Source of the DNA: Gammaproteobacteria bacterium
GTDB taxonomy: Bacteria > Pseudomonadota > Gammaproteobacteria > Burkholderiales > Sulfuricellaceae
Assembly (NCBI GenBank): GCA_018823025.1
Contig: JAHJJI010000024.1
Coordinates: 1 to 64,000 of the forward strand
Reading direction: 5' to 3'
DNA length: 64,000 nucleotides
The notes beneath the pieces are model-generated. The model was not told where the DNA came from, ran no database searches, and saw nothing but the letters and a program-made list of their open reading frames with translations. Within the stretch, counting starts at the first letter, position 1. Every line of letters begins with the position of its first letter. The translations under genes were made by a program, and so were the position numbers. Below are positions 24,060 through 25,281 of this stretch, one piece after another.

Positions 24060-24956
24060 CTATTTTCCGCCCGCCCGCACCCACATGACCGCAAGCCGCC
24101 CCATGCCCCAGCGGTGCAAGCCCAGCCCAAGCAGGATAAACGCGGCGCCGAACCAGACTTGCGGCAGCACCGCTTCGTTGTTCAGAAGGTGGCCCAGCAA
24201 CAGCGCCATGACCGGCGTGATGAGCGTGATCAGTGCCACGTGCCCGGCTTCCATGTGCTTGATCATGTAGAAATACAGCATGAAGCCCAGCACCGAGCCG
24301 AACACCCCGAGGTACACGGTGGCAATCAGCGCCTGCTGCGGCAGCGCTGCGGGCAAGCTCCCGTCCGTCCACCACCATGCCGCAAAAAACAGCGGCAGCC
24401 CTACTGCCAGCGTACCCAGCGTCATCGCCAGCGGATGGCTGTCGTCCCCGATGCGCTTGATCCACACCAGGCCGAGCGACTGCGTCGCCACCGCGCACAG
24501 CAGTGCCAGGATGCCCAGCAGAGCGCCCGGCCCCAGTTCCAGTCCGCCCTGGAACACCAGCCCCAGTCCGACCATCCCGAGCGCCATGCCGAGTATCTTG
24601 TTGGCGGTCAGCTCCTCCTCCACCAGCCACAACACCGCTCCCAGGCTGGTAATCAGCGGCGACAGCCCGAACAGCACCGAGATCAGCCCGGAAGAAACGT
24701 ATTGCGCCGACCAGTAGGTGAGCGACATGGCGCCGAACAGGCTCAGCCCGCTGGCCAGATAGGCCTGCCGCGCCTTGCGGTGCAGCGGGACGCGAATACG
24801 CAAGGCCGCAAGCAGGAGCACGCACAGCAGCGTGCCGATCGCCATGCGTGAAAATACCGCAAAGCTGAATCCCACCCCCAGCGCGCTCCACTTGATGGCG
24901 AGCGGCGTGGTGGACCAGATCAGGATCACCGATACGAACGCGAGCGGCAGCGACAT
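24060..24956 (-). CDS. EamA/DMT-superfamily transporter
   Basis: A 298-residue protein with ten hydrophobic segments in two repeated halves, each an EamA domain (FVSVILIWSTTPLAIKWSALG at the N-terminus; VYLGVFGSVLGFMLYFYMIKHMEA in the second half). Such proteins export amino acids, nucleosides or other small metabolites; the substrate is not visible. The start at 24956 is preferred because GAGGAGAAGGGA lies immediately upstream, and the track's longer N-terminus would be coded by the attenuator tail. The gene is preceded by a terminator hairpin, a short leader ORF and a strong promoter, so it is probably controlled by attenuation. Confidence 0.92.
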   Translation of the reverse strand: MSLPLAFVSVILIWSTTPLAIKWSALGVGFSFAVFSRMAIGTLLCVLLLAALRIRVPLHRKARQAYLASGLSLFGAMSLTYWSAQYVSSGLISVLFGLSPLITSLGAVLWLVEEELTANKILGMALGMVGLGLVFQGGLELGPGALLGILALLCAVATQSLGLVWIKRIGDDSHPLAMTLGTLAVGLPLFFAAWWWTDGSLPAALPQQALIATVYLGVFGSVLGFMLYFYMIKHMEAGHVALITLITPVMALLLGHLLNNEAVLPQVWFGAAFILLGLGLHRWGMGRLAVMWVRAGGK

Positions 24957-24976
24957 TCCCTTCTCCTCAAAGACGA

Positions 24977-25015
24977 CAAAAAACAAAAAGGCCACGGAGA
25001 TCGTCCGTGGCCTTT
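24977..25015 (-). terminator. Attenuator hairpin ahead of the EamA transporter gene
   Basis: Read on the minus strand: AAAGGCCACGGA, loop CGATC, TCCGTGGCCTTT, then TTGTTTTTTG. The 12-base-pair perfect stem and the U-rich tail make a standard intrinsic terminator 21 bases before the transporter's ATG. Its 5' arm can alternatively pair with a copy of TCCGTGGCC inside the leader ORF upstream (25059-25067), which would prevent the terminator from forming. Confidence 0.88.
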
Positions 25016-25041
25016 GGAAAAACTGCTGAAACTAAAACTGG

Positions 25042-25140
25042 TTAACGCTGACTCTCCCGGCCACGGAACGAGGAGCGGCACGCCATCTGCAGGCGGGCGG
25101 CTGGGCGGACTCGGACTAGGGTTAGAGATGGGGAATTCAT
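25042..25140 (-). CDS. Leader peptide ORF (32 codons) of an attenuator
   Basis: A short ORF missing from the track: ATG at 25140-25138, 32 sense codons, TAA at 25044-25042. The product begins MNSPSLTLVRVRPAARL and ends CRSSFRGRESQR; 8 of 32 residues are Arg and there is one Cys. The ATG is six bases after the -10 box, so the message would be leaderless. Codons 25-28 (TTC CGT GGC CGG) contain the TCCGTGGCC sequence that can pair with the terminator's 5' arm. A ribosome finishing at the TAA would cover it and let the terminator form, while one stalled earlier would leave it free. The arrangement is that of a translation-controlled attenuator; the sensed signal is unknown. Confidence 0.72.
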   Translation of the reverse strand: MNSPSLTLVRVRPAARLQMACRSSFRGRESQR

Positions 25141-25146
25141 GGGGGG

Positions 25147-25176
25147 ATTATCGGGGGAGGGGTGGAGAAGTGTCAA
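25147..25176 (-). promoter_or_regulatory. Promoter of the leader peptide/EamA transcript
   Basis: On the minus strand, TTGACA (25176-25171) and GATAAT (25152-25147) are 18 bases apart, with a C-rich spacer. The expected start point is the A of the leader ATG at 25140. Confidence 0.82.
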
Positions 25177-25281
25177 GCCTGAAATGACAGAATCATGTTT
25201 CTGATTAACTTTGAACGTAAAGTTGAGGGGCGCCGCGCTTCTGCGGCGTCCCGCTCGAACGCAAGGTTAGATTGCATTGGT

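Follow-up and report, generated by a model that had tools for sequence, protein, structure and literature searches.

We found that an EamA (DMT) transporter gene in the window (the whole 64-kb stretch of DNA that was analyzed) is preceded by a promoter, a short open reading frame, and two mutually exclusive RNA pairings, and that the same arrangement recurs upstream of orthologous transporters in Beta- and Gammaproteobacteria. With a probability of roughly two in three, we read these modules as a family of ribosome-mediated transcription attenuators that would respond to tryptophan limitation. The window copy, in which the key tryptophan codon has become a cysteine codon, is an atypical member that probably reports leader translation in general, or cysteine decoding. 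If this reading is right, an attenuator family spanning two proteobacterial classes joins the short list of leader-peptide systems that control transporters, and an uncharacterized EamA transporter gains a clue to its substrate, in tryptophan or aromatic metabolism. The family would also supply many natural leader ORFs whose translation is predicted to begin at a leaderless start codon, and lineages in which the Trp codon is gone would be natural controls, showing to what the remaining parts of the switch respond.

The module in the window

All parts of the module lie on the minus strand. The sigma-70-type promoter TTGACA-N18-GATAAT (25147-25176), with 11 of 12 consensus matches, consists of a -35 box at 25176-25171 and a -10 box at 25152-25147 separated by a spacer of 18. 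Six nucleotides after the -10 box, an ATG (25140-25138) opens a putatively leaderless ORF of 32 codons, MNSPSLTLVRVRPAARLQMACRSSFRGRESQR (25042-25140), which ends in TAA at 25044-25042 and whose frame is kept in relatives. Within this ORF lie a Cys codon, TGC (25078-25080), placed by the leader alignment at the site of the family Trp codon TGG, and the 5' arm of an antiterminator, TCCGTGGCC (25059-25067), hereafter copy 1. A conserved purine block, GGAGAG (25052-25057), extends this arm and has UUUUCC (25016-25021) as its antiterminator partner. The shared arm 3, AAAGGCCACGGA (25004-25015), can pair either with copy 1 or with arm 4, TCCGTGGCCTTT (24998-24987); with arm 3 it forms 12 pairs around a loop of 5, and arm 4 together with the T-run (24978-24998) completes an intrinsic terminator. 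Next come GAGGAG (24963-24968), which by its sequence is a Shine-Dalgarno-like motif of the transporter gene, and the gene itself, P0001 (24060-24956, ATG at 24956), encoding an EamA/DMT transporter of 298 aa (PF00892, 6.5e-35).

An earlier note on this DNA had placed promoter, 32-codon leaderless ORF, duplicated arm, and terminator at these positions, and we could confirm each of them base for base. The antiterminator is a long helix, longer than that note had stated: when the segment ending at arm 3 is folded, GGAGAG and UUUUCC pair as well. The observation exceeds chance expectation by the clustering of the 9-mer, by a shuffle z-score, and by a control scan for the promoter and ORF. A count of TCCGTGGCC and its complement over the 64 kb gives three occurrences, against 0.82 expected, and all three fall inside 81 bp here. 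Folded by itself, as it would be before arm 4 is transcribed, the window RNA that begins just 5' of copy 1 and runs to the end of arm 3 has these two arms fully paired (-26.8 kcal/mol; z -3.78, with 0 of 200 shuffles equally good), and the full-length window RNA folds into the terminator, not the antiterminator. A promoter-plus-leaderless-ORF score of at least 11 was reached at 76 of 77 related loci compared with 4 of 602 control positions in the same scan.

Distribution of the family

The family was collected in three ways. A DNA search of 61 related genomes recovered the region in close relatives; transporter orthologs were gathered at the level of the taxonomic family, among 399 genomes of the order, and in a named collection; and a covariance model, R1, built from the segment running from the Trp codon to the terminator, was run on the 399 order genomes, 92 loci, and 274 class genomes. 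Since R1 includes the Trp codon and was trained mostly on Trp leaders, it somewhat favors such leaders, and Trp-less ones were also found.

These searches, among them the covariance-model search that the earlier note had put forward as a check, show that the module recurs before EamA in both classes: it lies 5' of EamA orthologs in 77 distinct betaproteobacterial leaders (from Sulfuricella, Gallionella, Sideroxydans, Nitrotoga, Thiobacillus, Dechloromonas, and others) and in 12 gammaproteobacterial genomes. The recurring plan runs from the -35 box through 17-18 nt, the -10 box, 5-8 nt, and the ATG into an ORF of about 28-40 codons, followed by copy 1, GGAGAG, stop, linker, UUUCC, arm 3, arm 4, T-run, and transporter. 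In the relative G011, the leader is 93% identical to that of the window and the transporter protein 95%. Among the 399 order genomes, all strong R1 matches (E<1e-9) lie 5' of EamA, directly or across a chorismate mutase gene, with the exception of one locus (L058), and all 12 gammaproteobacterial matches below 1e-6 lie 5' of an EamA ortholog of 44-52% identity.

Weak R1 matches (E 1e-7 to 1e-3) that we sampled were of another kind, three being bare terminators (L068-L070) and one a different leader before an argD-like gene (L065). The many weak matches indicate that GGCCAC-type terminators are common in these genomes, as would suit an explanation by a chance ORF and a fortuitous terminator of the upstream unit, with no regulation involved. 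We consider this explanation extremely improbable, given that one gene family, in two classes, is preceded by the promoter, the leaderless ORF, the Trp codon, copy 1, and their spacing, all conserved together.

Promoter and predicted leaderless start

Among the 77 distinct beta leaders, 76 have five or six of six matches in the -35 box, and the spacer is 18 in 67 and 17 in 10. The distance from the end of the -10 box to the ATG is 5 nt in one leader, 6 in 51, 7 in 16, and 8 in 9. Because this gap measures 5-8 nt in 77 of 77, transcription is predicted to start at or next to the leader ATG and so to give a leaderless mRNA. A Shine-Dalgarno-like motif, sought in the 9 nt before the ATG, is absent in 74 of the 77 beta leaders. 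The gamma leaders also have TTGACA-type -35 boxes, with the start codon close 3' of the -10 box.

Just 5' of the -35 box (window 25176-25205), the sequence AACATGxTTTTGTCATTT is kept in four close relatives (G011, G005, G014, and G020) and may be a regulator site.

Transporter and neighboring genes

P0001 is an EamA (DMT) transporter by its PF00892 domains and its DMT fold. The predicted structure matches 5i20, which we take to be a YddG-type exporter, with TM scores of 0.77-0.84 (full-length chains), and the LicB choline importer 7paf with 0.76-0.81; a search by sequence for a solved structure of P0001 returned none. These matches to a predicted model reflect the DMT fold in general and give no transport direction. 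NCBIfam finds P0001 weakly similar to the aromatic exporter YddG. In some loci (e.g. L037 and L066), a chorismate mutase gene (PF01817) stands between leader and EamA, and its presence in the same unit points to aromatic metabolism. Among ORFs around EamA at 13 loci, inspection by eye showed no apparent recurrent neighbor, chorismate mutase having been seen in other loci. The window organism's own trpE, also inspected, has no evident leader.

A conserved tryptophan codon

By the leader alignments, the most conserved codon of the family is a single in-frame Trp codon. In the leader peptide alignment, TGG is present in 71 of the 76 beta leaders that could be anchored (L028 being the one that could not) and in 11 of 12 gamma leaders. 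Beta leaders mostly carry one Trp codon (63 of 77), with two in 9 and none in 5. Between nt 40 and 72, 69 of 77 leaders have TGG in frame, 25 have it in the +1 frame, and 1 has it in the +2 frame. Two leaders recovered by promoter and ORF, without model R1, are also Trp leaders (L142 and L149). The replacement by TGC is confined to the window and Sulfuricella sp. T08, a close relative; where these two read TGC CGC, G005 reads TGG TGC. Three further leaders (L087, L095, and L102) have one-off replacements by Gly, Val, and Leu codons. A 41-codon in-frame insertion in the leader ORF of L008 (G020:C239) gives a 74-codon leader in which the frame to the Trp codon is kept.

From the Arg-rich leader with its one Cys, the earlier note had tentatively read a signal of amino-acid shortage or ribosome-targeting stress. 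For the family, this reading gives way to the conserved Trp codon: it was drawn from an atypical copy, as no leaders other than those of the window and T08 have Cys there. In the window, whose copy lacks Trp, a response to a general failure of translation may apply. Arg makes up 12.8% of leader residues, the best single Arg position (W-3) has R in 47 of 76 leaders, and no Arg codon is as conserved as the Trp codon.

Close pairs of leaders differ at 48, 56, and 80 sites at codon positions 1, 2, and 3 from the ATG to the Trp codon (390 sites each), and at 46, 38, and 43 from the Trp codon to the stop (206 sites each). Across the family, copy 1 falls in all three frames relative to the ATG. Together, these patterns indicate that the 5' part of the leader and the Trp codon are read and that the last part is kept as RNA; coding constraint appears weak and mild before Trp and absent after it.

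Such weak constraint before Trp, with moderate conservation of Pro at W-8 and Arg at W-3, would also be expected if Trp and an upstream P..LR stalled the ribosome by nascent-peptide arrest on a small molecule such as free tryptophan, so that an exporter was induced when its substrate was abundant. In TnaC (tnaCAB), one functionally important Trp lies in a short leader and a transporter is among the regulated genes. The fold match to 5i20 and the weak similarity to YddG are in keeping with an exporter. Compared with TnaC, the leaders here have a variable Trp-to-stop distance (4 to 20 codons after Trp), an unconserved C-terminus free of codon constraint, and an intrinsic terminator with a competing antiterminator, and they do not qualify as TnaC-type arrest peptides. 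The variable C-terminus and the different frames of copy 1 make stop-codon arrest of fixed geometry unlikely, and the spacing described below suits Trp in the A site. Several points weigh against the tryptophan-limitation reading: most leaders have a single Trp codon, compared with two or more in classical trp leaders; the Trp codon has been lost in several lineages, the window among them, with the rest retained; the organism's own trpE shows no leader; and chorismate mutase made during Trp shortage would be metabolically odd. As inducing chorismate mutase on Trp shortage is not obviously useful, arrest on abundant tryptophan keeps some weight as an explanation, though we judge it unlikely.

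Spacing and alternative pairing

Limitation for tryptophan, our preferred signal, makes a prediction about distance. In toeprints, the leading edge of the ribosome falls some 15-16 nt from the first base of the P site, and a ribosome with Trp in the A site should extend to about 9-10 nt past TGG, so that copy 1 is only just uncovered. In 56 of the 61 leaders with both elements assigned, 9-10 or 14-15 nt separate TGG from copy 1, a count based on choosing copy 1 by complementarity, which misplaced it in some leaders (e.g. L018, L126, and L136); copy 1 was later reassigned from its distance to Trp. In most members, a ribosome that has reached the stop codon would mask copy 1 or GGAGAG.

The alternative pairing is conserved along with the leader frame, in line with what the earlier note had expected of related genomes. 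Of 69 segments, 68 have a minimum-energy fold in which copy 1 is paired with arm 3, and further pairs form inside. In a structure-guided alignment, 81.6% of cells are paired compared with 40-52% in slid registers, and changes on both sides occur in 23 cells, against 11.9 +/- 2.8 in shuffles (0 of 500). A structure-blind alignment agrees, with 80.5% of cells paired. A first covariation shuffle on 9-mers was weak (p only about 0.05), and covariation in the core of copy 1 and arm 3 is modest because most columns are invariant. RNAalifold on a MAFFT alignment returned only three pairs, owing to misplaced gaps, and the structure-guided realignment was used instead.

We simulated a stall by masking the RNA up to the ribosome edge, which gave a mean probability of 0.92 for copy 1 with arm 3 (above 0.8 in 66 of 69). 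With no ribosome, the mean is 0.63 and the pairing is dominant in 44 of 69 leaders, reaching 1.00 in the window. The no-ribosome values are what one would expect of a general translation sensor, in which any failure of leader translation, whether by shortage of several amino acids, ribosome inhibition, or poor leaderless initiation, frees copy 1 and turns the transporter on, the Trp codon merely tuning the response. The Arg content of the leaders and the retention of everything other than Trp in the window and T08 also fit this explanation. As an account of the family it is rather unlikely, since the Trp codon is far ahead of other codons in conservation and since in part of the family the untranslated copy 1 is hidden by upstream pairing (mean probability 0.26). 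General translation sensing may be the main behavior of the Trp-less window copy.

Proposed mechanism

The comparative evidence strongly supports the earlier note's proposal of attenuation by a leader peptide, encoded in a leaderless ORF and acting through a shared arm. Terminator and antiterminator are mutually exclusive and share one arm, and in the family a conserved control codon lies at stall distance in an ORF that overlaps the antiterminator arm; the window retains the ORF and the spacing, with TGC as the codon. From the observed promoter, leaderless ORF, terminator, alternative antiterminator, and conservation, we infer a start site, translation, stall, and regulation as follows. RNA polymerase would start at or beside the A of the leader ATG, and a ribosome would initiate at the 5' AUG without a Shine-Dalgarno site. 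On reaching the stop codon, this ribosome would cover copy 1 and GGAGAG, so that arm 3 would pair with arm 4 and transcription would stop. When tRNA-Trp is poorly charged, the ribosome would wait at the Trp codon with its front edge just short of copy 1; free copy 1 and GGAGAG would then pair with arm 3 and UUUUCC, no terminator would form, and the transporter would be made. The usual signal would be tryptophan limitation and the gene an aromatic-amino-acid-related transporter. For an untranslated leader, the predicted default is antitermination.

In the lineage of the window, where the Trp codon became Cys, the switch is kept and control by Trp should be lost; the copy would respond to a general failure of leader translation or to slow decoding at Cys. 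A more tentative idea, which we hold to be possible though doubtful, is that a deeply conserved leaderless leader, with antitermination as its untranslated default, couples the transporter both to Trp-tRNA charging and to the capacity for 5'-AUG initiation, and that some lineages, the window's among them, dropped the Trp codon and keep only the sensor of initiation and translation.

Relation to known systems

A classical trp leader carries at least two neighboring Trp codons and precedes genes of trp biosynthesis. With one Trp codon in most members and EamA as the downstream gene, the present leaders are not classical trp leaders, and the evidence supports their working like one. As in E. coli trpL (Rfam Trp_leader), a short ORF with a Trp codon precedes an exclusive antiterminator and terminator and the position of the ribosome decides between them (general knowledge and PMC7298713); the differences are that here there is usually one Trp codon, that the last part of the ORF contains the antiterminator arm, and that a DMT transporter takes the place of trpE.

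The nearest analog is trpL of Sinorhizobium meliloti, whose RNA (rnTrpL) begins with the ATG of the leader ORF and is thus leaderless, and whose Trp codons are read (PMC7298713); the present module resembles it in its leaderless start, here predicted. The S. meliloti system differs in having a 14-codon peptide before trpE(G), in belonging to an alphaproteobacterium, and in lacking a transporter. The products of that attenuator, rnTrpL and peTrpL, act in trans (PMC7298713), and a small RNA or peptide could likewise be released here, with cis attenuation playing part of the role. This would be compatible with tryptophan-responsive attenuation; we think it improbable, as the C-terminus of the peptide is not conserved as protein and the switch accounts for the sequence conservation. 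Another likeness is to drug-transporter attenuators under leader-peptide control, such as that of B. subtilis bmrCD, described as ribosome-mediated transcription attenuation of a transporter gene; the genes and the phylum differ (PMC4191407).

The family is apparently undescribed, in agreement with the earlier note, which had recognized no described family in the leader. A Rfam scan of the window yielded only a tRNA, and no Rfam family matches the module at the gathering threshold; Trp_leader is absent among matches at E up to 10. Matches to ncS54 (19.6 bits against a threshold of 43) and BcKCsr7 (19.4 bits against 59) are largely to the terminator hairpin and were rejected, as were SAM-II and P6, far under threshold and mostly terminator hairpin. 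A search of open-licence PMC full text found no description of this leader, which does not prove that there is none. The main text of a 2010 survey of premature terminators (PMC2965389) mentions neither EamA nor DUF6.

Degenerate copies and a second leader

The one strong R1 match lying apart from EamA (L058, G171:C14) is a decaying copy left after transporter loss: an orphan leader and terminator with a weakened -35 box and a mutated copy 1, in which c-type-cytochrome-like ORFs replace EamA. L014 (G009:C9), some 150 nt ahead of EamA, has a deletion of the leader ORF that brings the -10 box almost up to the terminator hairpin; by its sequence, this transporter would sit behind a bare terminator.

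A second leaderless, Arg-rich leader, e.g. MNACRLPLPQQRRAAARARAWAGRGASWTGRE.. and MNAIQHISIKAIWARRAPAGRGAF.., with a GGGCCACGG terminator, occurs in relatives (L065/L167, L168, L169, and L170; family f5). It lies directly 5' of an acetylornithine-aminotransferase-like ORF, named by eye, in four genomes of two genera, and is a candidate arginine attenuator.
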